From contig CM046863.1 in NCBI GenBank assembly GCA_025617745.1, forward strand, positions 9,970,935 to 10,034,934: a stretch of 64,000 nucleotides of DNA. Reading direction: 5' to 3'. Positions within the stretch are counted from its first letter, which is position 1; every line of letters starts with the position of its first letter. Shown here piece by piece: positions 8,381 through 42,800 of the stretch. Below the pieces are notes generated by a model. That model saw only the letters and a list, made by a program, of their open reading frames with translations. It was not told the origin of the DNA and ran no database searches. The position numbers were made by a program, and so were the translations under genes. This DNA is from Heliocidaris erythrogramma. Lineage: Eukaryota > Echinodermata > Echinoidea > Camarodonta > Echinometridae.

Positions 8381-10148
8381 TATTTTGGAAAAATATCTAA
8401 ACTTATCAGTATAAAATGGACAGAAAGGTGTCTACACAATCCAATAAATGGATTCACCTCAGTCACAGAACCTAATGTATTCACAAGATGATAAACTTGT
8501 CGGTCTGTAGCTAAAGCTGTCTACTTGAAATAAATCTGAGAAGATTGGACTAGAATTTAGCATACTTTCCCCTAATCCTACCCATAAGAAATCTGCATGT
8601 TCATTAAGGATTAACAGCATGGCCAAGGTGTTCTAGGATTTGGACTTCATCAGAAACAGGGCCAAAGAATTGAATTTTTGGGTGCCTCATCATAGATCAA
8701 GTCCAGGACTAAAGTGTTGATACCTGCCTGGAGATTTTTATATTTGCTAGAAGGTATTCAAAAAAGTCACTGAGAAGGCCTGTGGTGCAATTGCAGCTCA
8801 GCATTCTCATGCCTTGCATGATTGGGGTACATGTATATTAGCCATGGACTTGATGTGTTGGGGACCATAAGACCTCTAAGTTTACATATTGGTTGCCCTT
8901 ACAGTTAAGCTGCAGTTCTTTTGGCTTTAGAGGAGATATGGCCTATAGTTTGTGAGATTGTTCCTCTAATACTATCTTGCCTTAAGCATGGTTGATTAAA
9001 GAATGGGGTATATTTTTGGTAGAGTTTAGTGGCTAAGTCCATAATATTTTGAAATTAGTGAACACAAGCGGGTTTGTCGATCTATCTTTTACAGCTTTAA
9101 GGCGTTCTGCAGCCTTACTTGAACTGAGTATTCTCTTATTAAAACTTGGTTGACTTTCTTACAAGTCTGATATGGTGAGGCACTCTTATCTGGCTTGAAT
9201 CACAGGCTAAGAAGGTCATGGTGAGGAGATTATCCAACCCTCCTCCGGTTTGGTTTGGCAGAATAAAGTCAGAACTCAGGATGGAGATATAGGTGTCATC
9301 TATACCTCCACCACTATGTTAGAAGAGAATACATTTTTTGCAATACTTGAGTAATGTCTCTATGGTTAGGATGAAGATGATGAGTGAATCCTCACTTCAC
9401 CCTAGAGGAAATTCAAGTTTACATAGTATAGCTTGGTATGTAGTTCTGAAGTCTGTCAGTGCCTTCTTGTATCTTGTCTTCATGATAACTCTGATGGGTA
9501 ATCCTCAACCTCATCAAAAGTAGCGGGTGTTGCTGCAAGAGGAATTCTGCTGAAAATGTTCCGTACCTCTATCCCAATGATGCTCTCTAACTTCTGATTC
9601 CTAATGGCATCCATTTATAGAACTCCTTGAAGGGGCAAAGTGGGATACAAGTAGCTCTCACTCATGTCAACTGGGTGTGGACACTTATGTACCTCAGTTA
9701 TCATTTCACAGATGACTGTGAACTCAAAACCGACACATTAATTGCAGTTAGCAGTACAGTCAGAAATTAACTTTATAAAAATATATCATTACTAACATTA
9801 TCTTTCGTGTTGTGAAATCACAGAAATATGCCACTATTTTCTAAATATAGATTTCTCGATCACAATCTGCCTTAGCAGCGACCATATTTGGATATGATCA
9901 TTGGGAATAAATGATTAACATTTTCAATGCAATCATTCAGGCTGCTTGCAATGGAGATATCTAGCATGTCTATACTGTTATATTGTTTTAAAATAATGTT
10001 CAACTAAAACAATGCCACTTTCTGAAATGCCAATATTTTAAAGATGCTTTTGGTGCTCACAGCCACAGTACAACACCTACCAAGTGGTCAAAGTTAATAC
10101 TGTAATACGACAGCACAGTAGATGAGAGTATCTCTAAGTACAGTGGTA
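8381..10148. other. Unique non-coding DNA
   Basis: No repeat family recognised. Short open stretches exist on both strands (for example about 47 codons on the minus strand near 9500-9640), but none is long or family-like enough to call. Confidence 0.4.
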
Positions 10149-10161: not shown

Positions 10162-10590
10162 CATGTCGTTTTTCCGAAGGTTCGTATTTCCGAAGGTTCG
10201 TTTTTCCGAAGGTTCATAATTCCGAAGGTTCGTTATTCCGAAGGTTCGTTACTCCGAAGGTTCGTTTTTCCGAAGGTTCGTTTTTCCGAAGGTTCTTTTT
10301 TCCGAAAATGAAATAGGGTTCATAATTCCGAAGGTTCGTATTTCCGAAAATGAAATGAGGTTCGTATTTCCGAAAATGAAAAAGGGTTCGTATTTCCGAA
10401 AATGAAAAAGGGTTCGTATTTCCGAAAATGAAAAAGGGTTCGTATTTCCGAAAATGAAATAGGGTTCGTATTTCCGAAAATGAAAAAGGGTTCGTATTTC
10501 CGAAAATGAAATAGGGTTCGTATTTCCGAAAATGAAAAAGGGTTCGTATTTCCGAAAATGAAAAAGGGTTCGTATTTCTGAAAATGAAAA
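10162..10590 (-). repeat. Foldback arm tandem array (element I, left)
   Basis: 16-bp units at the outer end (10162-10310) change to 26-bp units 'ggttcgtatttccgaaaatgaaaaag' further in. Occasional units read 'gaaataggg' or 'ataattccg', giving at least two interspersed unit types. Long open frames over the array are by-products of the unit composition. Confidence 0.92.
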
Positions 10591-10817
10591 AAGGTTGTAA
10601 ATTCAGAGAATACGGCGTCAATCCGTATTTCGGATAGGGAGGAGGGGAAAGACGGCCAAGTGTAAAGATATTCATTTCGTACTCAATAATCATTACAATG
10701 ATGATAACAATTATAATAAAATCCAGAGAAATAGCCATTATATTATCCTAATTCCTATCAATATTATTATTATTATTATTATAATTACTATTATTATTAT
10801 CATCATTATTGTCATTA

Positions 10818-14607: not shown

Positions 14608-14633
14608 GATGAATTCGCCTTTTTTTACCAGGA

Positions 14634-15152
14634 ATTATGAACCCTATTTCATTTTTCGGAAATACGAACCCTATTTCATTTTCGGAAATACGAACCTTAT
14701 TTCATTTTCGGAAATACGAACCCTATTTCATTTTCGGAAATACGAACCCTTTTTCATTTTCGGAAATACGAACCTTATTTCATTTTCGGAAATACGAACC
14801 CTTTTTCATTTTCGGAAATACGAACCTTTTTCATTTTCGGAAATACGAACCCTTTTTCATTTTCGGAAATACGAACCTTCGGAATTATGAACCCTTTTTC
14901 ATTTTCGGAAATACGAACCTTCGGAAATATGAACCCTATTTCATTTTCGGAATTATGAACCTTCGGATAAACGAACCTTCGGATAAACGAACCTTCGGAA
15001 TAACGAACCTTCGGAATAATGCAACAAATGTTCGGAATTACGAACCCTTTTTCATTTTCGGAATTATGAACCCCCAGGCATGGGAAATTAGTGTTTCGGA
15101 AATACGAACCTTCGGAAATACGAACCTTCGGAAAAACGAACCTTCGGAAAAA
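14634..15152 (+). repeat. Foldback arm tandem array (element I, right)
   Basis: 26-bp units 'ccctttttcattttcggaaatacgaa' grade into 16-bp units toward 15152. The orientation is opposite to the 10162-10590 array. Variant units (aataacgaa, attatgaa, ataaacgaa) occur in the same order as in the inverted partner at 19718-20266. Confidence 0.92.
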
Positions 15153-15547
15153 CGAGATGCCCCCCCTTTTTAATATGAATTGGCTTATAAAATACAATGA
15201 ATTTTCAGAAGCCTTGCATATCTATTTGAACATTTGCATCTTCGTTTGTCATAGCAAGTGTCCTCCCAGGCATGAACTTGAGGCCTCCAACCTGAAAAAT
15301 ATTGTTGATCTGGATTTGAACCAATACGACAGTTGCACTTGTTTATAATTCATTATTTAGATACATAAATATCCCTTTCTTAAAAATCAATATTAGCTTT
15401 CTTATCATTCTTTTCCTTTAGCAACGGCATATTTTTATATGACTGACCTAAACTAATCCGGCTTTTGATTGCAATTAAAGGCGCAGCTTCAATTGTGTAT
15501 AATTAGATGCCTACATTGTACTTGGTTACATTACAAATACACGGTGG

Positions 15548-19699: not shown

Positions 19700-19717
19700 C
19701 TTTTATCGGGGGCATCT

Positions 19718-20266
19718 CGTTTTTCCGAAGGTTCGTTTTTCCGAAGGTTCGTATTTCCGAAGGTTCGTATTTCCGAAACACTAATTTCCCATGCCTGGGG
19801 GTTCATAATTCCGAAAATGAAAAAGGGTTCGTAATTCCGAACATTTGTTGCATTATTCCGAAGGTTCGTTATTCCGAAGGTTCGTTTATCGACGGTTCGT
19901 TTATCCGAAGGTTCATAATTCCGAAAATGAAATAGGGTTCATATTTCCGAAGGTTCGTATTTCCGAAAATGAAAAAGGGGTCATAATTCCGAAGGTTCGT
20001 ATTTCCGAAAATGAAAAAGGGTTCGTATTTCCGAAAATGAAAAAGGGTTCGTATTTCCGAAAATGAAATAAGGTTCGTATTTCCGAAAATGAAAAAGGGT
20101 TCGTATTTCCGAAAATGAAATAGGGTTCGTATTTCCGAAAATGAAAAAGGGTTCGTATTTCCGAAAATGAAATAAGGTTCGTATTTCCGAAAATGAAAAA
20201 GGGTTCGTATTTCCGAAAATGAAATAGGGTTCGTATTTCCGAAAAATGAAATAGGGTTCATAATTC
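19718..20266 (-). repeat. Foldback arm tandem array (element II, left)
   Basis: Inverted counterpart of 14634-15152, with the same order of variant units including the landmark 'cccatgcctgggggttcat'. One unit has mutated to 'cgacggttcg' (about 19891). Confidence 0.92.
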
Positions 20267-20411
20267 CTGGGAAAAAAAAAAAAAATTCATCAGGAGCAGA
20301 GGTGTGGGGGGGGGGGGGGGGGAGGGAACGCCCCCACCCCTCCCTCATCGGATGGCGAAAAAATAAGAAAAAAAAAGAAAGAAAATGGAATAGGAAAGGA
20401 GACGGTTGGAC

Positions 20412-22744: not shown

Positions 22745-23905
22745 CAACTCGGTTTATTTGGGCACAACATGGCGTATATTCCTTTGTTTAGTGCTTGCCT
22801 AACAAAGCAACAAGCGCCATATTGCTACCTACATGGAGCCGAGTTGGCCAAACTCTGTAATAGATGGCTCTGAGGGCTAGGGAAGCAGGACGCCCCCACC
22901 TTATTTTTAGTGTACACTTTTCATAGTATACTTTTTTAATCACAATTTATGTTCACGAAGTAATTACATCTTAAAGATAATAAAGTGTCAATGTTTGGCT
23001 CGCTGGAGTCCAGCAGCGTGGTGCCCGAACATCCTTTTATTTTGGGAAGCGAGATGGTCGGCTAAAATCATTATTCTATAGACAATATCTCCTTTTTTTT
23101 ACTTGCTCACTAGCGCGTAAGATTTAGAAACGGAATAGTTTGGGACAGGGAACGCCCTTCATTAGGGCGAGTGAAGTGCCCAAATATTCCATATTCGGCA
23201 GTAGGGTTCAGTAATATCATTCATGGCTCATTATTACATGTTCTATATTTGTCTTTTGATGGCGAAATTGCATTTCCATTACAATAAAAAGGGTTTTATG
23301 TTTTTTCTAACTCGCTTCGCTCGCTTGCAAATTGTACGAACGGGGAGTATGATATTCTGCCAAGAGGCATCAGCTCCCCCTTTCAAAAACATTACGTGAC
23401 CATTTTCTGCTTGTAAAGATCTACTTGGAACTTTGGTGTGTCTCATTTTCCAAAGCGGTATATACATTATATAAATAACTTCAAGCCAATTTCGTTGTAG
23501 GAAATTTAATCCGGAATCCGATAATTCACTTTCTTCAATACATCAGTATGTATTTTAGTCACCGAAGTAATATCATTTTATGAGAAATGAAACATGTATT
23601 CCTGAGGCGCTCGCTCTCCACGCTCGCTCACAGATATTGGTTATTATAATAGGAACAATTATAATAATGATAATAATATTAATAATAATAACAAAAATGA
23701 TGATGATAATAATAATAATAATTATAATAATAATGATAATATTGATAGGAATTACGATAATAATGGCTATTTCTCTGGATTTTATTATAATTGTTATCAT
23801 CATTGTTATGATTATTGAGTACGAAATGAATATCTTTACACTTGGCCGTCTTTCCCCTCCTCCCTATCCAAAATACGGATTGACGCCGTATTCTCTGAAT
23901 TTAAA

Positions 23906-24388
23906 CCCTTTTTCATTTTCGGAAATACGAACCCTTTTTCATTTTCGGAAATACGAACCCTATTTCATTTTCGGAAATACGAACCCTTTTTCATTTTCGG
24001 AAATACGAACCTTATTTCATTTTCGGAAATACGAACCCTATTTCATTTTCGGAAATACGAACCCTTTTTCATTTTCGGAAATACGAACCCTATTTCATTT
24101 TCGGAAATACGAACCCTTTTTCATTTTCGGAAATACGAACCCTTTTTCATTTTCGGAAATACGAACCCTTTTTCATTTTCGGAAATACGAACCCTTTTTC
24201 ATTTTCGGAAATACGAACCTTCGGAATTATGAACCCTATTTCATTTTCGGAAAAAAGAACCTTCGGAATAACGAACCTTCGGAAAAACGAACCTTCGGAG
24301 TAACGAACCTTCGGAATAACGAACCTTCGGAATTATGAACCTTCGGAAAAAACGAACCTTCGGAAATACGAACCTTCGGAAAAACGAC
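23906..24388 (+). repeat. Foldback arm tandem array (element II, right)
   Basis: 26-bp units 'ccctttttcattttcggaaatacgaa' from 23906 change to 16-bp units near 24240-24388. Inverted counterpart of 10162-10590. The long open frame here fuses a simple-sequence Ile/Met run to the array and is not a protein. Confidence 0.92.
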
Positions 24389-27037: not shown

Positions 27038-27080
27038 TAATGGTCATATTGTGTTAATGTGTTTTTCATTGAGGCTTTAA
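27038..27080 (-). pseudogene. Last codons of the interrupted LINE ORF2
   Basis: When read across the TTAA-flanked transposon (27081-31607), the minus-strand ORF2 frame ending at 31608 continues here for about 13 codons and then meets a TAA (27038-27040). This places the stop just after the SFK motif, the usual position for this protein family. It shows the transposon split the LINE at a TTAA site rather than the LINE ending naturally at 31.6 kb. Confidence 0.75.
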
Positions 27081-27251
27081 AGGTCCCCTTTTATGGAATT
27101 ACAAAGGAACTTCATTTAATAGACTTTTCTACTGTGAATCCAGATCTGTCAATCATATTACCTGAATTCCATTCATTAATCTGTAACCTTGAAAATAAAA
27201 AAATAACTGGGAACGCCCCTAAAAATTTTGGAAAATCGGTCCAGCGATCGA

Positions 27252-27269
27252 TGACGTCATGTGACGTCA
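27252..27269. promoter_or_regulatory. Two TGACGTCA (CRE-type) palindromes
   Basis: TGACGTCA occurs at 27252-27259 and 27262-27269, about 145 bp upstream of the first plausible ATG of the P2X7-like frame and about 170 bp inside the transposon end. This octamer is the consensus site for CREB/ATF bZIP proteins. A third copy lies symmetrically near the other end (31465). A promoter role is inferred. Confidence 0.45.
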
Positions 27270-27411
27270 CCCACAGAACGCTTGACTCACACAAGCTGGA
27301 TCGAGTATCGATGTGTGTCTTATGGCTATTGAGCTTCGTGTAGATCCCTTCGACTTCGTGCCATTTCAGCACTTCATTTTAGCTTTTTAAAGACAAAATC
27401 CTACATCAACG

Positions 27412-28650
27412 ATGGCATCATCTTCTTCAGCCAGGACACTTATTCAGGATCAGATATATCTGATTTGGAGCATCAAGTCCCAGAAGAAATTGAAGAGGAA
27501 TTAGGGGCCCGGCCGTATACTATGTTTGACTTTGAAGTTTGAGCCAGACATGGCTGATTCTGGGCAAGATTCTGATGATGACAGAGACGTCCCTGATTTT
27601 AATAACGGAGAGGATATCGACGGGAGACTTTGGAATAACAACTGGTAATTATTTTTTGATAATAAATTACCGATTAAAGTTTAATTCACGCATATCCACG
27701 TATTATGAATCTTGTTTACGCTTGCAAATTGCCCGAGCTGATACTTCGCTGATCGAGGCAGTGAGCTCGATGTGCGGCCGGGGTACCGTACACGCCGCGC
27801 CGTTTGGTTGTTCGCCTGCTGACCCTGCCTGGACTTGCGCTTGGGCAGTTTTACTGGTGCATGGGGTGGTAGCGTTTGATTCTAGTAAATTCTAACATTG
27901 ATTTCCAGAAAACTCTTAGCTCTCCTGTTATCTTGCTTGTTTTCTTTGTGCTGCTACACTAAGTAAGTGTAGGTACCGTTATAGTTGACAATAGATATGA
28001 TCTTCTTCTTCTTCTTCTCCACCCAGGGTTTCATTTCATTTCCAGAAAACTCTTAGCTCTCCTGTTATCTTGCTTGTTTTCTTTGTGCTGCTACACTAAG
28101 TAAGTGTAGGTACCGTTATAGTTGACAATAGATATGATCTTCTTCTTCTTCTTCTCCACCCAGGGTTTCATCCAGTGTGTCTGCATGGAGCGGTATGTGA
28201 TGGAAACTGCTTACTATTTGTATCGACAGCAGTATGGCGGACAGGCAAGGCAGGATGCAACTGAAAATCAGTGAGTACACCATATTTTTTGTTTTAATCC
28301 TTACTGCAGTATTCCTGTATTATAAAAGCAGTTTGGATGCAAAATGCCAATTTGGCTCCTTATGAAATTAATATTACGATATTCTATAAAAGAAAATAAT
28401 GTTTTAGCCTTAATGTAAATAGAGGAAGATTATCTTCTATTGTTTATTTGTGAAGTTCAAAGTAAAAGTTACCTCACTATCACCTACATCATAGACTACA
28501 CTGTGCATTGTTTTGAAGTTGTCTAATCATAGTTTCCTTTGTACTCTTAAAAAAAAAATCTTTTATAGGAAAGCCAGGCAGGGCAGGACGTGTTCCTCTC
28601 CCATCTTGTGCCGTGACAAGAATCCGTGCAGCATTTCCATCAGAACCATT
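27412..28650 (+). pseudogene. P2X7 C-terminal (ballast)-domain-like protein, broken
   Basis: Three exon-like blocks fit, in order, the cysteine-rich cytoplasmic C-terminal domain of P2X7 and its many invertebrate relatives. Block 1 (27412-27644) has an acidic leader, then ARPYTMF and FEPDMADSGQDSDDD, ending in NNN before a donor (gtaatt). Block 2 (28164-28270) follows a strong cttcttcttctccacccag acceptor and encodes GFIQCVCMERYVMETA, with donor gtgagt. Block 3 (28569-28650) encodes GRVPLPSC then IRAAFPSE, the family's PSC..IR..FP signature. The WC.CG.C zinc-binding segment and the AYR segment are not found. A 13-bp insertion (27529-27541, duplicating tttg) shifts the frame in block 1. Exon phases do not join, and block 3 runs into hAT-like repeat DNA. 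The family assignment is firm, but the gene is dead. Confidence 0.72.
27901..28174. repeat. 137-bp tandem duplication
   Basis: 27901-28037 is repeated at 28038-28174. The unit includes 'gctgctacactaagtaagtg' and the pyrimidine tract plus cag acceptor of P2X7-like block 2. It therefore duplicated an intron end and its splice acceptor just ahead of the exon. The copies are almost identical. Confidence 0.9.
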
Positions 28651-30780
28651 GGCGGATCCAGGGGGCACAGCCGGCCCGGTCCCCCCCCCCCCTTTTGGAA
28701 GAGAAGTATGATTTTTGTTGTTGCTTGTCAGGGAATTATGGAGGGGAAACTGGACCCCAATAACCCCTTACTGAGCGATTTTTGAAGGTTTGGCAAATTT
28801 CTTTTTTTGCCGCCCCCCCCCCCCCCCCCCCTCACTGAGCGACTTTTCGAGAAGCAGGCGAGACCAGAAAAATACGGGTCTACCTTTTGACAAACTTTCA
28901 TTTTTGTGCCCCCTCTTTTACTCAATCCTGGATCAGAACAGAACAGGGGCTTTGAAGAGGCGTAGACCTACATACAATTTTGCTGTTATCTTTTCCCCCA
29001 CCTTGTCAAGATCTATGTTTACAGAAAAATATATGTTTTACTTCCACCTTATTACTGAGATTTTTATTACTGTTCTAAGATAGATTTTCAAAGATATTTT
29101 TGGAAATATTCCCTGCATTTTACCTCTTTAGGGTATTTTCTTTTCAAAGTTTACTGTATGTATATATATTTTTTTAACCTTTGCAAAAAAAATCAAAAGG
29201 GAGGGCAGCTCTGTGGAACTTTAATTTAAGCTATGCAACCATTATTCTCATATTTTTTTTTACTGGGGCTTGGATATGACATGCACAAATCTCAACATTA
29301 TGCAAAGGTGATAGTAGAATTGAACATTTTAAAAATATTTATGTATCAGAACTGTTGTTCCATCAGTGTAAACATTTACACAAAGTCATATTTGAAAGGA
29401 AAAAATACTCAGTACTAATGACTGGCAAACATCTTTTGTTTAATCGGGTCATTCATGTGATCATCATTATTGTTGCTTCACATCATATTTCTTTTCAAAT
29501 TGACATTATTTTTTCTACAGATTTTTTTTTCTTCTTTCATTTGATTTATTGTTGTATTTATTATTATGTACTTATATATGTTGGTCTAGTTGTTAACTTG
29601 ATAACGCTTAGATAGCATATACATTTATCATGTATATAACTGTTTATAAGAAATGTTAAAAATGCTAGTACGTCATTGTTCAGTCTATCTTTTCATGATA
29701 TTTAATTCCTATACATGGATATCAGTTTCCCTGAAAGTTGGGTTTATTACATGAGGGTGTGCTACACTGACAATGTGGTAAAAATTTTATTGCTGTTTTT
29801 GCTTCAAGTATCAGAGGAAAAGAGGAGTCTAGGAGGCTTATTTTGAATATTCACTTTCACTGTCAAATAAAATTGGAATTGGGTAACTGAGTTCACATCT
29901 AAGTATTTGCCCAGAGCATTTTTTGTAATTGATGTTGTAAAGATGCATGTATCTCAGTCAAGAATGATAACTCTATTGTTAATGGCATATGAGGTCTGTT
30001 ATTTTTTATGGCATTTGTTGTTTAATTTGTTAATGAAACACACTTTGGAAGCTAATCAGTTTTGTTTGTTTTGTTTTGTTATTTTTTTTTTGGGGGGGGG
30101 GGGGGGGGTGGGCATTCTATTGAATTTTTGATGTTCAATTGTAAGACAACCATTTCCTGGATACAACATCTGTATCTACATTTTTCCAGAAGTAATAATA
30201 TATTTCAAATCAATTGAATATTTTTGTCATCTCTAGAAGAGCTCAAACACATTTACTATGCAAGGTTTGTCGTGAATGAAACTAACAATTGAAAAGAAAG
30301 GTATGAGTGCGGGAATGAGATCAAAACCAACAATTGGCAGAATGGAAAAAGAGAGATAAAAAGTTGAGAGGAGATGTGTGTAATTGGAGAATATTGGGCA
30401 AAAAGAAGGAGAAAGGGAGACAGAAAGCACAAGAGAAGAAATAGAGAGAGAGGGAATCATTGGGGGAAAAAGGGAGAGATAAAAAAGTTGAGGGAAGATG
30501 TGTGAAAGTGGAGAATTTTGGGCATAAAGAGGGAGAAAGGGAGGGAAAGCACAAGAGAAGAAATGGTGAAAGAGAGAGAGGGAATCATTGGAAAACAGAT
30601 TTTCTGTCAAATGAACTACATGTATAAGGTAGAGAAGTAGGAATCAACCTGTACCTGTGATGTATACCCCTTTTTCCTGCCGAAGGAGGGGGAGGGGGGG
30701 GGGGGGGGGTTGTAGGTTGAAAATTGCCCGTTACATTTTCACTACATTCAGGGTGGTAACAAAAATCAATATTAAATATA
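28651..30780. other. Transposon interior without coding signal
   Basis: Starts with hAT-like 'ttggcggatccagggggc' next to a C-run (28681) and a second C-run (28805). Then A+T-rich DNA with a G-run (30094) and a two-unit purine-rich repeat (about 124-bp period, 30347-30590, 'gagataaaaagttgag' and 'gaatcattgg'). No transposase exon recognised. Confidence 0.45.
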
Positions 30781-30955
30781 CGGTGGAAACTTAGTATAAC
30801 GAGGTCCTTGGGACTATTAAAATTACCTGGTTAAATCCAGAATCTCGTTATATCAGTTAAAAAAAAAAAAATATAAAGAGTTGAGACCAAAATATTGCCT
30901 TGTTATATCAGGAATATTGTTGTATCAGACCTCTTTATACTGAGTTTCCACTCTA
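30779..30955. mobile_element. Pogo/mariner-like MITE, 173 bp, TA duplication
   Basis: 30781-30953 has inverted ends ggtggaaacttagtataacg and its diverged complement (ctttatactgagtttccact), with TA on each side. The ends resemble those of Tigger/pogo-type elements. It is nested inside the TTAA transposon. Confidence 0.75.
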
Positions 30956-31122
30956 CCATGATAAACATTTTTATAACACTCTTTATGGAGAAAGATCTTT
31001 TTCTTCATCAAGAACAAAAAAAAAATCATTTTTAATAGTAAAGACCAATTGAGAGAGGTGCTTGTGAGGTAAAGCTCAGAGTCGCCAAATTTCATATTGA
31101 TACATGTATGATCAAACTTGTT

Positions 31123-31359
31123 TCAGGGACGGCCTCTTCTTGATGCCATACGCAGCCCCGTGCTATCGACGAAGTCCTCCGCACAAAAGTGCTCGGAGCA
31201 CACAACACTGTGCTCACTCGGCCCCTTCCAATGGGCGCGAGTTAATTTTACTTTTGCGGTCCATTTCCTTCTTATATTTGGGTCTTTAGGGAATAAATGT
31301 AGACTGACACCCTCCTTTGTGGTGTTACTGCAACCTGCAACAACGCAGCGTTGCGGCAT
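31123..31359 (-). CDS. THAP-domain protein, N-terminal exon
   Basis: The frame begins MPQRCVVAGCSN and reads through HLFPKDPNIRRKW to VVCSEHFCAEDF. This is the THAP zinc finger: C-X4-C at residues 5-10, the invariant tryptophan near 33, then C and H of the CSEHF motif at about 54-57. THAP is a DNA-binding domain used by P-element and Kolobok transposases and by host proteins derived from them. The final AVPTIF-type motif is absent, so the exon probably ends near a GTATGG donor after FVDSTGL, with the rest on exons not found. It sits about 250 bp inside the right end of the TTAA transposon, transcribed inward. The second genomic copy is frameshifted. Confidence 0.85.
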   Translation of the reverse strand: MPQRCVVAGCSNTTKEGVSLHLFPKDPNIRRKWTAKVKLTRAHWKGPSEHSVVCSEHFCAEDFVDSTGLRMASRRGRP

Positions 31360-31464
31360 ACTTTTTAAGAGGTGGTTTTACGAGGTGGTATACACAGCAG
31401 CAAGTTAGTTTGCACATGTAATACATAGGCAATATTGTAAACAAGCATCGGCAATGTCGGTTTG

Positions 31465-31472
31465 TGACGTCA
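31465..31472. promoter_or_regulatory. TGACGTCA (CRE-type) palindrome upstream of THAP ATG
   Basis: Lies about 105 bp upstream of the THAP start codon and about 135 bp from the transposon end, mirroring the pair at the other end. It is retained in the second copy (52841-52848). The promoter role is inferred. Confidence 0.4.
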
Positions 31473-31611
31473 CACGTCAATCATGCTCGCGGAACGAGAA
31501 TTCGGGGTTTAAAAGGGGGCGGAGCTTAAGAGACTGTTTTGATTTTTCAATTTAGATGAGATGCATGTACAAAATACCAAGAATTATAATTTCATAAAAG
31601 GGGACCTTTAA

Positions 31612-34520
31612 ATGAATGTAAGGATGACGCAGATTTTATGTTATCGGGAAGGGAGTTCCAAATGTCGGGACCGTGGTGTCTTATGGTTCTGTGGACCAGT
31701 AGGGTAATGGGGTTTACGAGATGAATATCAGATGAATGTCGTGTAGGATAGGAGTGAACATTAGTATTGTATGTGAAAGTGTGTTGAAATACCAAAGGTA
31801 ACATTTTCATTGAAAACTTAAACATAAAGATAACGGTTTGAAAAATATGAATGTCATCTATTTTCAGAGTTTTAAAATAATAAAATAGAGGGTCTGTATT
31901 CGCTAGATAATGAGAATACGAGCATATGCGCAAAGCCCTTTTCTGAAGTCGAAAGAGAGATTGAATTCTGGTCTCACTGCTATTACCCCATGCTAAATTA
32001 CAGTACGATATATGGGGGAAAATTACTGAATTGTATATTGTATATAAAGCTTTTTTTAGGAAGAAGATATTTTAATTTATACAAAATTCCTATACCTCTT
32101 GATACGGAGGTACATACATTATTAATGTGAATATTCCATGTTAAATTGGAGTCTATTGTAACTCCTAAAAATCTAGCGGCTTGTTTTTCTTTAAGTATCA
32201 AATCATCAATAACAATATTTTCTTGAAGAATAGTATGCGAATGAATATTTTTAACGTACATAAAATTAGTTTTATCAATATTTAATGATATTTTATTGCA
32301 TTTAAACCATCGAGATAATTTAGCTAACTCAAGATTAAGGATTTTAATTAGGGTATGTACATTTTCATGCGAGTAAAATATATTAGTATCGTCGGCAAAC
32401 AGAACATAGGTTAGGATTGGAGCAGAATTAATAATATCATTTATATATATCAAAAAGAGTAAAGTACCCCAAATTTACCCTTGTGGTACTCCACATTTAA
32501 CATTAGAGGTTGTTGACGTGGCAGATTTATATGCTACATATTGATGTATATTATATAAATAATCTTTAAACCATAATAAAGTATTCCCTCTAATCCCATA
32601 ATGTTGTAGTTTATAAATTAAAATCTGATGGTCTATAGTATACGCCTTCGACAAATCCATAAAAACACCTATTGTATGTTCCTTTTTAGATAGAGCGTTC
32701 GTAATTTTATCACAAAGTTGTACAATAGCATAGTCAGTCGAGTGATTTTTTCTAAAGTCAAATTGTTGTGGAATTAGTAAGTTATTAATATCTAAGAAAG
32801 AGTACAATCTTTTATAAACTATTCTTTCTAAGACTTTAGAAATACTCGATAACAAGGAGATGGGGCGATAATTAGTAATGAGGGAAGGATCATCTTTTTT
32901 GTAAATTGGAATTATTTTTGCTGTTTTTAATGAGTTTGGAAATATGCCTAAAGAAAGGGATAAATTAAAAATGTGAGATAAAGGGGCGGCTATATAATGA
33001 ATGATTTGTTTTAATAAGGATGCGCTTATTTTATCGTAGTCACTTGATTTGCTTGATTTTAATGATTTAACAATCTCTTTGATTTCGTGTATACTTGTTG
33101 GATTAAAGAATAAAGAGTTTTCTGTATTAAAAGAGAGGTATTCAGAAAAGTGTGCATTATCACAACGTATTTTAGATGCTAAGTTAGGTCCAACGTTAGT
33201 AAAATAAGTATTAAATGCACCTGCGATTTTATCTTCTTCGTTAATTCTGTCATCATTATAAATATATTCATTAATATTTTGTGTATTTTTCTGTCGTCCA
33301 AGAATTGTGTTAAGGGTTCGCCATAGTAAATCTGTATTGTTAGTATTGTTTTCGAGTTTATGCGAATAATATAAACGACGGGATAAGCGAATAATAGATG
33401 TTAGTTTATTACGATAACGAGTATATTTGGCATGATTTTCAGTAGAGGGATGGCATAATGAAATTTTATATAACTTGTTTCTTGTACGAATAGATTTAAA
33501 TATACCACTAGTAATCCATGGACGACGATTACGTTTACTATGTATTTTTGTTCGAACTAAGGGTATATTTTTATTATAGCAATCTAAAAGTTTGTTTCAA
33601 AAATTATCATAAGCTTTATTTACATCAGGTTCGCAGTAAACATCGTTCCAATCTTCACTGCTCAAATCCATTTTAAAGGAATTTATATTATCTTGAGTTT
33701 CTTTCCTGTGCATTTTAAATGTATTAGATCTATCCTGCAATAATGGGAGATCAGTTATTTTAGTAATCATAAATATTGGGAGATGATCCGAAATATCATA
33801 GTACATTATTCCGTAAGAACAATTATTGGTACAGACATTGGTGAATATATTATCAATTCTTGAATGAGTGGAATTTGTAATTCTGGTTGGCTTATTAATG
33901 TGGGATTGGAATGCATACGAAGATAAAATATTAAATAAGCGATGACTTTGATTATTAAGAGGAGTAGAAAAATCAATATTAAAATCGCCAATGAAGTAAT
34001 TATCCTTATTTTCATTGCAAATTTGTTCAAGACATTTATCCATATTATCAAAAAAAAAGAATCTACTATATTATGGGGTGGTCTATATACGACACCAATA
34101 ATTTTATTTTTAAGCTTATCATCAATAATTTCTAGAAATAAATCTTCAACCCCTATTAAGTGAATATCTGGTCTCAATTAAAATTTAAGAGTATTATGAA
34201 AATAGAGGGCTACCCCACCCCCTCTCCCATTTTCTCGATCTGCCCGAAGTAACGTATAATTTTCAATATCATTAATAAGGGGTGAATTTGAATTTAACCA
34301 GGTTTCGGTTAATGCTATTAGCGAAAATCAAAGAAAGAAAGATTTCAAAGTTATCAAAATTTTTATTTAGGCTTCTTATATTCAAGTGAAGTAAACTAAA
34401 GTCATTGCTGATATTGTTAATTAAGGATAATGGTGAATTAAACATAGGATTAAATTCATCCACCGTATAATAATTACTTTCAATACTCAAATTCTGATCA
34501 TTTAAGTTATCATTCAGCAT
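31612..34520 (-). pseudogene. CR1/L2-like LINE ORF2 (endonuclease + reverse transcriptase), decayed
   Basis: From 34520 downward the order is: an APE endonuclease start (LLHLNIRSLNKN), TETWL (in a shifted frame), GVVYRPPH, GDFNID, SRIDNIFTN and SDHLPI, the endonuclease catalytic series; then the RT with a KKDDPSLITNYRPISLLS region, motif A (FMDLSKAYTIDH), CGVPQG, and motif C FADDTNIF; then FLGVTIDSNLTW and the WNSLPDNIKSASSLHSFK C-terminus. Such proteins copy their own RNA at a nicked genomic site. Lesions: frameshifts near 34330, 34045 and 32055; stops near 34178, 33599 and 32474 (right after VPQG); a missing codon in motif A (KAFDTIDH is usual); and a DNA transposon in the last codons. ORF2 is otherwise almost full length. 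Confidence 0.88.
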
Positions 34521-34860
34521 TGATCAAATAAAAGAGCCGTTCTTAAAATCCATAGGTTCGCAATATAGTACGGTGCGTGTGTGCCGGTGCAAGTGCGCAA
34601 AAAGAAAAATAGGATACAGGATGCAGGAATGCAAACATGTATAATGATCGGACAGATTTTCGATTGGTAATAATATTAAACAGTTAACATATGAATATAA
34701 ATCCCCAAAGATCAAAGGCAGGGGCATGATGGGTCAAACAGATAGTAAATTTTCAGAATGAATGTCCGTGATTATTGTATACCGTAGTAATTATTACAGG
34801 GCGAAAAGAAAAAAAAAATAAAAATAAAAAAGGCAAGAAGCAGTAGGACTATTCGTCAAT
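34521..34860 (-). other. Probable LINE 5' region
   Basis: Directly upstream of ORF2 on the minus strand. A 67-codon open frame (34524-34727) carries no recognisable domain, and I find no ORF1 esterase or zinc-knuckle motif. It ends in an A-rich block near 34808. Confidence 0.35.
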
Positions 34861-35039
34861 AAGAACTACCAGAAAAGCTAAGTGAATCAGCAAGGATATA
34901 ATAACAATGGACGCTTGTATTGAATATGTCTAGACTGCATGTTTCATTAAATCCATTCATTATCAATAGAACATTATACAATACCAGGATCATTTGATCA
35001 TGAGTCAAGATACACTGTCCTTTTAAAAACATCCTTTGA

Positions 35040-35720
35040 TTATACCTGACGTACCGTGAATTTCGAGGTCTCACACCAGCAATGCAAAATCCAACATTTC
35101 GATGTTGTAAAAAAAAAGAACCAGAAACTGGAATATGTTTTTTTTTCTAATTCCCCTCCCACAGAGAAATGGCTTCCTTGCATTTTTTTTTAAATATTGG
35201 AAAGAAAAAAAAACATTATTCTATTCAACATTTCAATGTTGAAAGCAAGCGAACCAGACAGTGACATTTCTTTTTCGAAGTACTCTTCCCACACAGATAT
35301 ATCTTGCGTGTACTTTTTAAACATCGTTTTTCTTTGTTACTTCAAACAGCAGTTAACATAACTAAGTCTATATAAACCCAGGTATGACACTGAGACGATT
35401 GTGACTTCTCAAGTATATCATCTCTTTCCCGTTTAAGGTCGTTAACTAAAGGAAATTCTTCAATACCATGATTATGAGTGATTATACATTCTCTTTGTAG
35501 GATCATCTATTGATTTATACATGAAGTACATTGTGAATTTGGAGGTCACACATCAACAATGTAAATCCACCATTTCAATGTAGAAAAAAAAACCCGAACC
35601 AGGAACTGGAATATGTTTTTCGAAATCGGTCTCCCACGCAGGCATGACTTCATTGTACTTTTTAGCCGACCTTGTTACTTCAAACGGCAGTTGCCATAAC
35701 TGTATCAACACTGAAGTGAG
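35040..35720. repeat. Local diverged repeats around a palindromic 'caacatttcgatgttg'
   Basis: Three passages (about 35060, 35220, 35545) share in order a ctcacaccaNcaatg or caacatttcNatgttg palindrome, 'gaaccagNaactggaatatg' and 'tcccacNcagNNatgNcttc'. 'tgttacttcaaacNgcagtt' follows twice. Non-coding. Confidence 0.6.
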
Positions 35721-36012
35721 TGAAAATCATTTCTTTATTCAAGAAAATGTTCAAAATACATTACCAGGTCCACTATCCATTTGGACAGTGGCAGGTACAC
35801 ATAGAAAATACAGACTTGAGAAACATATATACATATAAACGTACACTTAAACACAGGAGATGTAACATCCATACATTAGGATCTTTAAAAGGCAAAACAA
35901 CCTAAATATCATCACGAATTAGCGATAACAATGAAATATATAGGATATACGACAGCATTGCAATATATGTGCAATAAATAAAGTATATAATAAAGAGGTC
36001 TGTGAAGTTGTT

Positions 36013-36475
36013 TTGATATTCGTTATTCGTTATTCGATATTCATTTGATATTCATTTGATATTCATTTGATATTCATTTGATATTCAAAAATGCCTAAAA
36101 TCGGATTTTTTTTTTCCACGTATGCCTGGCGCCCACGGTCCCCGATCTGATGCCATGATGACCTTGACTTTGACCCCTCAAGGTCATGGTCAAAAATGGC
36201 GCCAAATATGAATACTAGCTTTTTGACGAACTGAAAGTGGCCCAAAATCCAAAATTTTTCCACCCCCGCCTGGCGCCCACTATCCGCGATCTAATGCCAT
36301 GATGACCTTGTTGTTTTGATATTCGTTATTCGTTATTCGATATTCATTTGATATTCATTTGATATTGAAAAATGCCTAAAATCGGATTTTTTTTCGACGT
36401 ATGCCTGGCGCCCACGGTCCCCGATCTGATGCCATGATGACCTTGACCTTGACCCCTCAAGGTCATGGTCAAAAA
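36013..36475. repeat. Two-unit repeat with 'gatattcattt' array and 'tcaaggtca' motifs
   Basis: Each unit (from 36013 and 36313) starts with gttattcgttattcgatattc and several ttgatattca steps, then gcctaaaatcggattt, atgcctggcgcccacggtcc, and gatgaccttgac facing cctcaaggtcatggtc. The last two form an inverted pair. The second copy of the locus has fewer ttgatattca steps (57405-57445). Confidence 0.75.
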
Positions 36476-37127
36476 ATGAAGATAGTTGCAAACAGAGGGA
36501 AAAAAATTGATATTCTTAATATAAACGGGAGAGTTTAGTATCCTACTGCATATTATCAAATGAGCATGTATGGGGCATTGGACCATGTCTGCTCATGCCT
36601 ACTATAAAATGTAATAAACGATGCGAGCAGAGCAGCCTTACTTAAATCATTAAACATGTCATTTGGTCGTTTGTTACAGCCACACCTTGCAAGAGTTTTC
36701 TTAATCCGGGTTTTATTTTCATAATCAATAAAGCCTCTCTGTCCAACTTCAATAGCTTCATACATAGTATCAAAACCAGATTCATTTAAATCTTCAGTTA
36801 ATACTTTATACCTTTCTAACTTTCGTTTGAAAAGTATGAAAAGTCATAAAACAATACGCATGATACATATCGCATTAATACATGTACAAACTAACTAAAT
36901 TGGAGAGGTTCTCATCTAATTGAATTGTACCCCAAAACCATTGCGACTTCTCAAATATAGTTCATTTATTACATCCTGTCAGTGCTCATTACATATTATA
37001 GAACAATATATCCTGGGATAATCTCAGTAGACCGACAACCCACGGGTAGGAAATGATGAAACATATAGGACATATATGTACTGATACAAGCATGTCCCCT
37101 TTTACCAGAGGCGACCCTCGACCCTCG

Positions 37128-37640
37128 GGGGGGGGGGGGGGGGAGGGGCAGCGCCTCCCCCAATTTTTCAGGCACCCATAAAGTGCTCCTTTCTATTTTG
37201 AAAAAGTGCCCCTCTTTACTCTGATAAGTGCCCCGTTTCTCTTTTATAAGTGCTTTTCCACCCTTCTGATAAGTGCCCTTTATTCTTTCCTTAATAATGC
37301 CCTTTCCCCATCCTATTCAGTTCCCCTTTTCAAATCTGATGAGTGCTTCCTTTCCATTAAGTCCCCCTTTTACCACTTATTAAGTGCCCTATTTCAAATC
37401 TGATGAGTGCCCATTCTTTCCTTCAGAATAAGTGACAATTTCCCCTTCTTGTAAATCCCCATTTCCCATTTTTATAAGTGCCCTTTTTCAAATCTTATGG
37501 ATACCCTTTTTTTGTTTTACTTCTGACAACACATAGTGTCTCCCCCCTATTGCCATTTTCCCCTTTTGACAATTCTGCCTTTTTCAAATTTGAAGAGTTC
37601 CCCTTTTTATTTAGATTATTCCCCCTTCTGAGAAATGCCA
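37128..37640. repeat. G-run followed by degenerate ~30-bp 'tgataagtgccccttt' repeats
   Basis: After a G-run (37128-37143) comes a long series of variable units containing 'aagtgccc(c)ttt' or 'tctgatgagtgcc'. The same phrases in reverse occur at 25690-25890. Short open frames here are meaningless. Confidence 0.65.
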
Positions 37641-37699
37641 CTCACTCCTTATTTCAAGACGGTTCTATAGCCCATCTGTATAGTTGTACTTGTTCAAGT

Positions 37700-37948
37700 T
37701 TTGTTTGCCGTTATCATGATTATGTTGCTTCATGATAAACAGACTTAAAGGCCATATAAGAATATTTTCTTGTTCATTGAGTCTAATTTATACTGCATTC
37801 AATAATTATGACCTTAAAGTGTTCTTCATAGGGGTGAAATCAGAGCCATTATAAGTAGGCCACATTACTCCGACCCAGATAATTAACAGAGAATCAGGGG
37901 CGTAGTTTCATAGGCGACTGGGGGCACATTCCGCCAATCGAATATCAA

Positions 37949-37989
<41 letters not shown>

Positions 37990-38640
37990 GCAGGATAAAT
38001 GATAACACAAAAAGGGTTAATTAATATTGAATGGTGCCCCTTTCTTCTCTTGTTTATTTATGAACTTTACGTTTTCTCAGTTATTATCATCTGACAGCAC
38101 GTTAATACACGTGAAGAAGCAACCGGTGGCCTATAGCCTCTACATATGATGACGTCATCAAGTCGTCTTCTGTTTTTCGTGAGATTATTTCCGGGTTTTG
38201 ATGCTCTTGAATTCAAGCTTTCACACAATTATTTCTCCTCTGCATGACACTTTGTAAGCAAATAGTAGCAATTACTGTGTTCTGTGGCCGCTAAGCTTCA
38301 TTATTATATATGATTTATCCATTTCATTTTTCATTTCGGAGATGGTCTTTAAGTCCATTCTGGCCTTTTCTTCCTTTTCTTGCAAAATATCACCCTAAGT
38401 TTAGATAATTATGTACATATAACTTAATTATACTCCTATGTTTAAAAGCACTTGAATCGTCATAAACGGACAGGTTGTGTATGCGGACATTCGATTTAAA
38501 ACAGCCACTGAAATAAGTTTACAAGCAATACTTCTGAAATTTTCTAACACTTTTGTTGGACAATATTATAGAGAACAGAATTGATGTTGATTATACTATT
38601 TAATGAATAGGTTTTGTTGAATTAAAAGATAAAAGAGAAG
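37700..38640. other. Non-coding DNA
   Basis: Contains an (AG)n/G-run at 37958-37990 following 'caggggcgtag' (a hAT-like terminus) and a palindromic tgatgacgtcatca at 38148. No gene. Confidence 0.4.
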
Positions 38641-38849
38641 GCTTCAGTTTTGTTAGGCGTCCGGACACACGACCCCCCCCCCCCCCCCCCACACACACCT
38701 CCGGCGCCTATGAATTCATCCCAGATCTCAGTTAGGTTTAAAATGACCTCACAATTTATGGCAAGTTCCTTCGCAAAAATTGCGCCCTTCTGGAGAAAAC
38801 TAGAAGAGAAATATAAAACAAAATCATACAAACTGATAAAGGAAGGAAT

Positions 38850-39590
38850 AAGAGAAAAATACTGAAAAAAATAAAAGAAGGCAAGAGAAGAAGATGCTAG
38901 AATAAGAAAGACAGAATAGAGAAGATGATAAAAGGAAGAAACAAAGAATAAGAGATAAGGGAAAGATCAAAAGAGGAGCTGAAAGGAGATTAATGAAGAA
39001 ATACACGGTGTAGGGTAGAGCAAAAGATGATAGAGATAATAGAAGGAAATAATAAAGGAAACATAAAAGAAAAAAAGACAAGATGATGGAAGGCAAAGAA
39101 TAAAATAAAGGAAAGACAGCAAGAGAAGACAAAGAAAGGGGAAAAAGAACAAGATATGGAAAGACTGGAAGAGAAGATCCAAGAAAGATCAACATACAGA
39201 AAGAGAAGAACAAAGAAAAACCAAAACAAAAAAGAACATGAGGAAAGAAAACAAGAGAAGATGAAGAAAGATCAAAACAAAGAATAACATAAGAAAAGAC
39301 AGAAAGAGAAGATGAAAGAAAGCCCAAAACAAAGAATAACATATTAAGCAAAGAAGGAAAGAAAAAAGAAAGAAGAAAATAAAGAGAGACATAGGGAGGG
39401 ATAGAAGTAAAGATGAAGGGGGGGGGGGGGGGGGTAAGGAAAGGTAAAGACAAAATGATACTAAAACAAAGAACAACATAAAGAAAGTTAGTGAAAACAA
39501 ATGCAGAAAGATAACGCAATATTAAGTTTAGGACAAGAGAAAAGATAAAACAATGAAAATATGAATGAACATAAGGAAAAGATGTCATGG
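38850..39590. repeat. ~740-bp polypurine tract
   Basis: The plus strand is almost entirely A and G (aagaaagaagaaaataaag style), with a G18 run near 39420. The complementary pyrimidine strand reads as a 254-codon Phe/Ser/Leu frame, a composition artefact. The second copy (60190-60838) has lost about 13 and about 80 bp here, as expected from slippage. Confidence 0.85.
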
Positions 39591-39591
39591 A

Positions 39592-42170
39592 GGGGGTAGT
39601 TGTCCTGGGGTTAGTTGTCCTAGGGGGGTAGTTGACCTAAGGGGGTAGTTAGTCTGGGAGCCTGTCCCGAAATAGTCACACCATCTTACCCATAAGATTT
39701 GACCCTTTAAAGTTGCTAAGACCATCTAAGTCATGGACAAAAAGGTTGTCAGCCTGAACGTAGCCGCTGGGTTTAGCACCCAGAGCCCCCAGAAGAAGCA
39801 CCAAAGTCGGGTCGATTTCACCCCATCTCCCCCATACACCAAACTTAGTAGGAAGTAGTATGACTGGACATTACAAAACACAAACAACTGACAAAAACTT
39901 CCAAAAGAGCTATGGATGTACATTCCAAAAATATAAAAACTGACAAAATTGTCCATCGGGAAGGGGTTGTCAGACCCCTGAAATGAAAACCCAAATTGCC
40001 CTTTGACAACGTTTTGCCCCCCCCCCCCCCATGCTCTATATGTAAAGAATTTTTTCTTATTTTTCTTCTTATCTTCTGACTATGATAACTCCCCTTATAC
40101 AAAAATACCATGGTAATACTACGTATTTCATGGTATTACAGCCATAATACCACGAAAACATGGTAAATCCGTGGTACACATCGTATTGCCACAGTATTAC
40201 TACGAACAAATTGTATATTCATAGTATTTGCATCGTGTACCATGAAAAGCATGGTACATTCATAGTATTTTCATCTTGACAATGGGTAACGCAGTAAATT
40301 CATGGCACTTTCACAGTAATACCGTTCCAATTTACCGCGGTATTACCATGGTATTACCATGGTACTTTTTTGTAAGGGTCAAAAGTGTTTTATTCAATTC
40401 AATTCAAACTTTCATAACATAATTTTGAGTATAATAATCTTCTTGCCGTGCAATTTGGTGTTAATTGGTCTTTTGATTAATAAGTTATTGAATTGTGAAA
40501 CATGTATTGCTTTCTCAAAGGTAGCCAAAAAATATTGTCAGGACTTTGTAAACACACCCATTGTCAATCTGATAAGGCATACTAGAGGAGCTCGCTTGGT
40601 TTCTGTGTAATTAACGCATGAAAAGTACATTTCAGGTTGGCAGTCACATACCACAGAAACCTGAAAAGCTCTTCTATTATGTCTTTTCAAACAGGTGAAC
40701 AGGGACAATGGGTGTGTTTACATAACCCTGACAATATTTTTGAGGTACTTTGGAGAAAGCAATACATTTTCACAATTTAATTAATTATCAAAAGACCAAT
40801 AAACACCAAAAATGTAAGAAGATTATTATACTCAAAATTATGTTATGAAAGTTTGAATTGAATTGAATGAAAAACTTTTTAGTTATTATAGTCAATAGGT
40901 AAGAAAATGTTTTTTCTTTACATAGAGAGCATTTTGGGGGTCAAAGCGTTGTCAGAGGGCACTTTGGGGGTTTTCATTTCAGGGGGTCTGACACAACTTC
41001 CCGATGGACAATTTTGTCACTTTTTATATTTTTGGAATGTACATCCATAGCTCTTCCTACTGACAAAGTTTGGTGCATGGGGGAGATGGAGTGAAATCGA
41101 CCCGACTTTGGGGTCTCTTATGGGGGCTCTGGGGGCTAAACCCGGCGGTTCAGGCTGACAACCTTCTTGTAAATGACTTAGATCGTTTAAGTAAGGTAAA
41201 GTAAGGGTAAAAAGTTATAGATAAAATGGGGTGACTATTTCGGGATAGGCTCCTGCCTAAGTTGTCTGGGGGATAGTTGCCCGGGGTAGTTGTCCAGGGG
41301 GTAGTTGTCCGGATACGATATATACATGTATACCCTGCACTTTTTTCAAGAGGGGAGTTCATAAACGACGGTTCTAGTACTAGAATTTATATTTCAAATG
41401 CTATGGAAGCATGGGTGTCGATCCCGGGAGGGGGAGGATGTGTGATATATTCTCCAAATAGTTCAGGAGGCGGTTGGCCTGTATCCCCCCAATAATTCAC
41501 CTTCAGTAAATGACATGCTCAAATAATATGATCAGGAGGAGGAGGAGGAGGATTACCATGATGATTATTATTCATAGGATCACAATGGATCAACGTGGTC
41601 ATAATTTTTGTTATGATTTTTTTTTTAAATTATGATTCAGATTTTATTGCTGTTTTCAATCATATTAACATAATTTACATAATACTGTAGTGCATAACAT
41701 AATATGAATACAATAATAACAAAATATAACAATTTTTTTCCATAGACATGCACAATATTATATCAAGAAGTAAAATTTAAAAAATATGATACACAAATAT
41801 TGACCTATCAAGTGGTGTTGAAAACAGTTGGACATGTTTAAAAGCAAAACTTGTATATTACATGTCCAGAAACTCATATAACTTAATCACGAGTGGGTCG
41901 TTCAATAATATTAAATTCATAAAGATTAGGAAGACCGAAATCAGTTTTCAAAGAAAACAATGAAATTAAGCAAGTTAGTAATTCCTATGAAATCATACTC
42001 AAATGCTCTGAAAGGTGATTTTAACTCAGGGTAATTTGAATGTCCCAACAATGGGAGGGCATACTCCATTCCCACGTCCATGGCCATATTAAACAGGGGC
42101 ACACTGTAAATCATGTATTATGAAAATATTGCTACGAGGGCTTCAACTAATCTCCAGGACAACTACCCCC
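39592..42170. mobile_element. Long palindromic (foldback) element with 'gggggtagttgtcc' repeats
   Basis: An outer arm at about 39655-40056 is the inverse of 40917-41258 (for example gtcccgaaatagtcac against gtgactatttcgggat). An inner arm at about 40379-40600 is the inverse of 40690-40908. Tandem gggtagttgtcc motifs lie at 39592-39660 and 41262-41320, and an inverted copy ends at 42170. Whether the element ends at about 41320 or 42170 is unclear, and no target duplication was found. It has no coding capacity. Copied at about 60840-63420. Confidence 0.7.
40092..40378. mobile_element. MITE with 'ccatggtaat' ends, inserted in one palindrome arm
   Basis: Ends cccttatacaaaaataccat and its complement (atggtacttttttgtaaggg). 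The interior is full of 'accatggta' and 'catagtatt' phrases. The opposite palindrome arm reads straight through the equivalent site (near 40895), so this is an insertion with its own empty-site reference. Confidence 0.8.
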
Positions 42171-42410
42171 TGCGACAAGCCCCTCCCCGCGCAACTTTCC
42201 CCTCCCACAAATGGACGATTGTTGGAACTTGAGATAAAGGCTAAGGATTAAAGTCTCCACTATTAGGAATGGAGAAACGGGAGGATTTGGATGTGTGTGT
42301 GTGTGTGTGTGTGTGTACGGGGGGGGGGGGGGGTGGCGGGTCCTCTCCTCCCACGGAAGGAACTTTTTAAGTTAATGAACGGAAATCATGGTTTAGCACA
42401 TTGTAGATGT
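41330..42410. other. Non-coding DNA
   Basis: Contains a short (GAG)n run (41536), A+T-rich sequence and a (TG)n-G-run compound microsatellite (42292-42333) whose length differs in the second copy. No gene. Confidence 0.45.
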
Positions 42411-42413
42411 ATG

Positions 42414-42640
42414 AATAGGCCTGTTTACTAAGTGTATTTAAATTTATGCATGTTTCTCTCCAGAATCCTTAGCTACCAACTATTTAGTGCACCTGATATG
42501 CATAATGGCATCTCTATGGATGGAATCCATTTTGCATACATTAGATGTTGCTATGTCGGGCAAGCCTCTGGCAAGCTTTTTAGTCGTCAAGAGAAACTTT
42601 TGTTCAAGAAGTATGCATAAAATTAGTAAACAGGTCTATT
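42414..42640. mobile_element. MITE, 227 bp, 'aatagRcctgtttac' ends
   Basis: Starts aataggcctgtttactaa and ends ttagtaaacaggtctatt. A related copy lies inverted 350 bp away (42991-43227). The interior shares 'gttgctatgtcNgNcaagcc' and 'tatgcataaaatt' with that copy. Two overlapping 62-codon frames are chance. Confidence 0.8.
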
Positions 42641-42800
42641 ACGGCAAAACCATGTTTGACGCATTCACGATCTGACTAGTGGACGAGGGAGACGCCAGTG
42701 GACGGGTGAGCCCTTCTTGCACAAAGCGCGGTATACAGCTGACACAAAGCATTCCATTGTAGCTGGGAAAATCTAAGACGGCGTTCAAGTCCACACATTC
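42641..42800. repeat. Short block shared with 48938-49140, partly inverted
   Basis: 42641-42736 (acggcaaaaccatgtttgac ... cacaaagcgcggtata) is the reverse complement of 48938-49014. 42737-42800 (gctgacacaaagcNNtccat) is a direct copy of 49070-49140. The pair thus differs by an inversion of one half. The identity of the sequence is unknown. Confidence 0.65.

Follow-up and report, generated by a model that had tools for sequence, protein, structure and literature searches.

A Kolobok-type transposon with remnants of THAP and P2X7 ballast-like genes in the genome of Heliocidaris erythrogramma

Structure of the element

A 64,000-nucleotide (nt) stretch of the Heliocidaris erythrogramma genome (assembly GCA_025617745.1, contig CM046863.1, positions 9,970,935 to 10,034,934; hereafter the window) contains at 27081-31607 a single element that is flanked by TTAA and has inverted ends, a THAP zinc finger exon on the minus strand and three blocks resembling the P2X7 ballast domain on the plus strand (Table 1). 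It is very probably a non-autonomous, internally deleted Kolobok DNA transposon, whose complete ancestors had two convergent genes, one for a THAP-DDE transposase and one for the protein KolX. An initial annotation of the sequence had proposed a TTAA element with terminal inverted repeats at 27077..31611, coordinates that proved right to the base. That a THAP coding region and P2X7 ballast-like exons lie together within it is confirmed by the ends, a Pfam match and the relatives of the element.

The 29-nt arms at 27076-27104 and 31584-31612 are identical at 27 of 29 positions. The 4-bp TTAA target-site duplication that Kolobok membership requires is present, and the termini, 5'-AG...CT-3', follow the 5'-RR / YY-3' rule of Kolobok. 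The ends are real and not a product of chance, since the first 99 nt recur at 100% identity at all 40 scored places, window included (the best 40 of 458 candidates), in the 1.06 Gb and 26 contigs searched. The THAP match spans 31126-31377 on the minus strand (E 1.9e-14, cut-off 23.9 bits), and the exon also matches four THAP chains in PDB (THAP2, THAP1, THAP11); an NCBIfam search with it gave no match. A 7-nt deletion lies near the end of the exon, and the DAIP.. (AVPTIF-like) box of the related elements L033 and L034 is lost.

Table 1. Features of the element, in window coordinates
Feature	Position	Strand	Basis
TTAA target-site duplication, left	27077..27080	.	Direct reading
Left terminal inverted repeat, AGGTCCCCTTTTATGGAATTACAA	27081..27104	+	Inverted-repeat match; 99-nt genome search
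Subterminal GACGTCA-type repeat, left, ATGACGTCATGTGACGTCAC; partner near right end	27251..27270	.	Direct repeat
KolX exon A remnant, ATG at 27412, ...SDISDLEHQVPEEIEEELGARPYTMF / FEPDM...NNNW, donor-like GT at 27645	27412..27644	+	Sequence, alignment
Tandem duplication of 137 bp in KolX intron; single unit in other copies	27898..28171	+	Repeat search, alignment
KolX exon B remnant, 3' half only, 4-nt insertion	28157..28270	+	Alignment with L033/L034
KolX exon D remnant, ...RVPLPSCAVTRIRAAFPSE	28569..28646	+	PF20478, E 0.043 alone; relatives exceed cut-off
Repeat of ~0.29 kb inserted in KolX exon D, ATCAGAAC at both sides, borders approximate	28647..28933	.	Alignment with uninterrupted L033/L034
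KolX exon D end, ...RGFEEA stop, matching L033/L034 FPSEEYRGFEEA	28940..28965	+	Alignment
Transposase N-terminal THAP exon, MPQRCVVAGC...	31126..31359	-	PF05485, 54.6 bits; 64% identical to THAP of the sister locus (L038)
Subterminal GACGTCA-type repeat, right	31454..31473	.	Direct repeat
Right terminal inverted repeat	31584..31607	-	Inverted-repeat match
TTAA target-site duplication, right	31608..31611	.	Direct reading

The KolX exons of the window copy are damaged in several ways. The ATG of exon A is out of frame with the rest, and a 13-nt insertion follows ACTAT; versions with the ATG in frame occur in L029, L033 and L034. The 5' half of exon B, found in L033 and L034 (CSCSGGC...CC...C), is deleted, and on reading of the sequence the exon A and exon B remnants join in different frames. 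Exon D is without 47 nt (HVAYRQLVRWCWxFL) that L029, L033 and L034 retain. All three P2X7-like blocks of the initial annotation are present as strings, but PYTMF..EPD and GFIQCVCMERYV are products of frameshifts, the former straddling the 13-nt insertion and the latter carrying a 4-nt insertion relative to HPGFHPVCLDRYV of L033/L034. Against the Pfam profile P2RX7_C (PF20478, cut-off 23.5 bits) the PSC..IR..FP block alone reaches 14.1 bits, and 15.5 bits with the exon of a sister copy, still below the cut-off. The other two blocks have no match to this profile, and PDB searches returned none for the joined window exons or for the sister-copy reading of exon D.

With the Cys-rich half lost, the frameshifts, the deletion and insertion in exon D and the out-of-frame start codon, the window copy cannot encode a ballast domain. 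None of the eight interior reading frames of the element matches a Pfam domain, and a DDE catalytic core was found neither in the window copy, by eye and Pfam, nor by eye in L033-L035, on which ground the window copy is classed as a non-autonomous derivative. L035, another member of the subfamily read over 4.8 kb, has the THAP exon and the right end. The window copy is not a functional two-gene element: the Cys-rich half of exon B is deleted, its reading frames are disrupted and it shows no transposase domain.

Copies in the genome

Twenty of the 39 other scored places were fetched, giving 21 copies with the window. They were picked by the left end, the left TTAA being part of the query, and are therefore uninformative on copies having other left ends. 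Left end to right end alignment, with assorted insertions and deletions, is obtained for 19 of the 20; L025 carries a large insert extending beyond the 10 kb read, so that its right end was not reached. The 15-nt left flanks comprise 19 distinct sequences among the 20 fetched copies, the right-end TTAA is found in 18 (altered in L027, not reached in L025), and mean pairwise identity among the 21 copies is 98.8% over the left 0.9 kb, indels excluded. The window family is young, mobile, multicopy and recently multiplied.

The pieces resembling P2X7 are retained in the other copies: exon A in 21 of 21 copies, the exon B remnant in 21 of 21 and exon D in 20 of 21 (L025 being cut off), window counted. 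A search of the KolX region in the window and the 20 other copies did not find the Cys-rich motif, with the seven zinc cysteines of the ballast domain, and no Kolobok transposase-like frame was seen among frames of at least 130 amino acids (aa), judged by eye, in the fetched copies. The 8-kb insert of L025 is not the middle part of an autonomous element, since it holds unrelated repeats and no open frame of at least 130 aa. L016 contains an inserted reverse transcriptase.

Exon A shows, at about 27500-27560, nine kinds of small indels within ~60 bp in 10 of the 21 copies. The copies are otherwise ~1% divergent, and some of the insertions look templated or palindromic. Another indel-rich stretch lies at about 27720-27860. 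A single double-strand-break site behind the exon A cluster was rejected, the indels falling at several sites.

Less-deleted relatives and the ballast homology

Three relatives, L029, L033 and L034, have nearly the same ends as the window element and a fuller KolX. The last exon of L029 keeps the 47 nt absent from the window, reads RKARHVAYRQLVRWCWSFLGRAGRVPLPSCAVTRIRAAFPSE and matches P2RX7_C at 32.1 bits (E 1.4e-7); the PDB chains listed for this frame at E <=10 are P2X7 in four of four cases (best E 0.1). In L034 the last exon is uninterrupted and scores 38.1 bits (E 2e-9). In L033 and L034 the middle exon, which comes after the intron following 'NNW', still has its Cys-rich half. This half reads CSCSGGC...CC...DC and then HPGFHPVCLDRYVMETA, and the zinc-type cysteines CSC..C, CC and DC(ITEHP) are readable despite small frameshifts in each copy. 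Elsewhere in the genome the protein of locus L030 aligns to residues 465-591 of solved P2X7 (E 1.5e-13).

P2RX7_C exceeds its cut-off at no fewer than 150 places of the genome (150 of 150 scored, of 463 candidates), and the same search gave no match in 14 control genomes. Exon D of L029 matches at least 150 places (150 of 150 scored, of 606 candidates), 51 of them at 100% over all 42 aa. The profile comparison called for by the initial annotation thus succeeds for L029 and L034 and falls short for the window copy itself. Judged by these profile matches, the P2X7 ballast homology of the last exon is firm through the relatives and weak from the window copy alone.

Linkage of KolX, THAP and transposase genes

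A sister locus at C8:9311259+ has an exon D 79% identical to that of L029. A 9.8-kb stretch was read there, starting 1.4 kb downstream of the exon D match. On the strand opposite KolX it contains a 230-aa frame matching the Mutator-like transposase family PF20700 (33.6 bits, cut-off 26.5) and further transposase-like exons, with a MULE domain match under cut-off (E 0.0011). The THAP exon of the locus scores 49.6 bits and is 64% identical to that of the window over 66 positions (E 2.8e-27). The locus also reads 'LITDRH...HQFDVWH', as an exon, and '..ALESFHNVINQFAPK', which under a tentative assignment of the catalytic residues may include the Kolobok C/DxxH between the second D and the E. The arrangement is that of the window with the missing middle present.

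The generality of this arrangement was assessed with a 190-aa piece of the sister transposase, which gave 74 places (87 candidates, all scored) that reduce to 60 loci when matches within 6 kb on one strand are merged. For pairing, the best 150 of 463 candidate P2RX7_C matches and the best 150 of 3966 candidate THAP matches were used; as a control the matches were shifted at random along the contigs in 2000 trials, contig ends being set at the largest coordinate observed. A P2RX7_C match lies within 12 kb of at least 22 of the 60 transposase loci, tail to tail (convergent) in 22 of 22, compared with 0.22 on average and at most 3 in the shifted control. Addition of eight exon D matches raises the number to 24 paired loci, all 24 convergent. 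Likewise, THAP is found within 12 kb of at least 19 of the 60, upstream on the transposase strand in each of the 19 (control mean 0.22, maximum 4). All three parts occur together at 15 or more loci, two of which rest on exon D matches, and the linked Kolobok transposases range down to about 35% identity.

The two strongest P2RX7_C matches of the genome are convergent with a transposase 7.5 and 8.9 kb away, the strongest being the L030 protein, at 7.5 kb. L030 and L031 had been considered as host ballast genes, a view overturned by convergent transposases 7.5 and 6.3 kb away, respectively. L032, which at first resembled a host ballast gene, has no listed transposase nearby.

Short tandem arrays of P2RX7_C matches occur at G000 C11:22196077-22202198 (four matches) and C7:42458659-42461909 (three matches), with no listed Kolobok transposase nearby. 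It is possible that these are domesticated ballast genes.

Neighbouring sequences

Window positions 31222-42750 and 52599-64000 are 98.8-99.5% identical. The second copy starts just past a gap of 500 N (52086-52585), repeats the right end of the element with its flank, and probably represents a second haplotype that the assembly left uncollapsed. The element stands at the edge of a degenerate reverse transcriptase frame of non-LTR (long terminal repeat) type at 31592-34070 on the minus strand (RVT_1, 65.2 bits in 32475-33596); similar frames were seen by eye beside or in L012, L016 and L021. Four related tandem arrays with a 26-bp unit (GGTTCGTATTTCCGAAAATGAAAAAG) occur in both orientations at 10166-10600, 14631-15155, 19717-20267 and 23904-24387.

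Among the other loci, the Kolobok copy of L034 contains a ~1.5 kb insert at the equivalent of window position 29627, and within it, at 4786-5449, a frame resembling tyrosine recombinases (PF00589, E 0.0022, under cut-off); this insert is presumably Crypton-like. Adjoining the element copy of L027, at 7412-10000, is a long open frame of leucine-rich repeats, by eye perhaps a Toll-like receptor.

Discussion

According to the available sections of Kojima and Bao 2022 (PMC9587614), the KolX protein of the Kol0 lineage of Kolobok resembles the C-terminal part of P2X7, earlier work had not noted that animal ballast-like proteins belong to Kolobok, and P2X7 arose via fusion of a P2X4-like gene and KolX. 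The KolX-P2X7 link and the transposon origin of the P2X7 tail are therefore already published there. No earlier count of the linkage between KolX or THAP and the transposase was found in the available text of the Kolobok and P2X7 ballast literature searched. With Kol0 (Kapitonov and Jurka; PMC9587614) the present family shares the TTAA duplication, the RR/YY ends and a DDE transposase accompanied by the ballast-like KolX, although the window copy is non-autonomous and its KolX deleted and frameshifted. The KolX exons of L033, L034 and the transposase-linked loci agree with Kol0, a placement by KolX content, and the THAP exon of the window and those upstream of the linked transposases agree with the THAP transposase of Kolobok.

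Kolobok elements of Xenopus, XKol and T2-MITE (PMC6004289), have the same TTAA target, a terminal AGG and a transposase with THAP and DDE in a different host. In the available text of that study Kolobok transposases 'usually possess' THAP, plus DDE, T2-MITEs are presumed non-autonomous Kolobok members, and the name KolX is absent. The zinc-cysteine signature and the AYR..W..PSC..IR..FP block are also those of the P2X7 ballast, P2RX7_C and the ZCD and Nanor proteins (PMC7016195), whereas KolX differs from the P2X7 receptor in having no receptor part and being encoded beside a transposase. The accessible part of PMC7016195 describes ballast proteins that occur on their own in a range of animals, among them one from Ixodes that has a 'TAHP' (presumably THAP) domain, and gives each invertebrate species one or a few ZCD genes; the string 'transpos' is absent from the text of that paper.

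KolX is the second gene of Kolobok. Because it is linked to the transposase at many loci, the ballast-like protein is the transposon's own gene; of the two roles offered by the initial annotation, cargo or part of the transposition machinery, the first is set aside and the second stands in so far as KolX belongs to the gene set. Several observations weigh against so simple an account. The copies found include no complete autonomous member of the window's own subfamily; the transposase described is that of a sister subfamily (KolX exon D 79% identical) and was read without its own terminal repeats. The Cys-rich pieces of L033/L034 alone give no Pfam match, and their link to other KolX consists of a 26-aa alignment (46%) and the cysteine pattern, the partner being the L031 KolX exon, itself at 35.7 bits against Pfam. 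Among the matches listed, 38 of the 60 transposase loci have no P2RX7_C within 12 kb (36 with exon D matches) and 41 have no THAP; matches outside the best 150, decay, or Kolobok lineages without KolX may account for the unpaired loci. Eight of the ten strongest P2RX7_C matches have no listed transposase nearby, and these may be host genes or lie beside transposases too divergent for the query.

These last matches would also suit a capture of host exons, in which THAP and a ballast gene were taken up as cargo by another kind of transposon and the pair then spread, as would the 128 of the 150 listed P2RX7_C matches that are not the nearest partner of any transposase locus, some of which could be host genes. 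Many of the unpaired matches, however, belong to the window's own deleted family, and the order and orientation of KolX and THAP are fixed around transposases down to ~35% identity, which is not expected of one recent capture; the capture is very improbable. A piggyBac-type element with a KolX-like C-terminal protein would likewise duplicate TTAA, and a few piggyBac families carry a KolX-like C-terminal part according to the available text of PMC9587614. The same text gives Kolobok termini as 5'-RR / YY-3', unlike piggyBac, and has the zinc-type cysteines mostly missing from the piggyBac versions. Here the AG..CT termini fit Kolobok, THAP is present, the sister transposase matches the Mutator-like PF20700 and the relatives keep their zinc-type cysteines, so that an origin from piggyBac is extremely improbable.

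The surviving THAP frame could also make the element a functional repressor derivative, a truncated DNA-binding protein competing with the full transposase, for which short P-element repressors offer a comparison. The THAP zinc ligands are in one open frame in 12 of the 21 copies, and in the available text of PMC6004289 competitive binding is put forward as a way in which domesticated Kolobok proteins may suppress transposons. The frame is nevertheless broken in eight copies (that of L025 was not seen), the window exon has the 7-nt deletion near its end, and open frames are expected without selection because the copies differ by only about 1%. A repressor role is possible but unsupported, and unlikely.

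With the window element as a deleted Kolobok transposon, its complete ancestors would have carried two genes running inwards from opposite ends. The gene starting from the right, on the minus strand, would have encoded a transposase that joins a THAP zinc finger at its N terminus to a DDE catalytic core. The one starting from the left, on the plus strand, would have encoded KolX, a short zinc-cysteine protein bearing the ballast signature of P2X7. An autonomous Kolobok transposase probably recognises the terminal DNA through THAP. It would move the window family in trans, by cut-and-paste into TTAA, a need that follows from the loss of DDE and of half a KolX exon. The most likely role of KolX would be that of a zinc-dependent accessory working alongside the transposase in the DNA complex; what the window keeps of KolX and THAP would be passive leftovers.

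The 22 convergent pairs of 22, far above the shifted control, are independent statistical support for the KolX report of 2022. The data support the link between KolX and the transposase, not the direction of the P2X7 fusion. They also illustrate how single decayed copies can mislead, the ballast domain being recognisable here only through less-deleted relatives. That the P2X7 ballast proteins of this genome are largely Kolobok genes, and the ballast at root a transposition protein, is doubtful, the strongest P2RX7_C matches without a listed transposase speaking against it. If true, the zinc and GDP (guanosine diphosphate) site biochemistry found in P2X7 would survive from an earlier function within a transposition complex. 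Deleted copies that keep multiplying would spread KolX exons, with their splice-site-like borders, by the hundreds, and new exon fusions of the P2X7 kind could draw on them continually. The many near-identical loci make the job of KolX in transposition directly testable.

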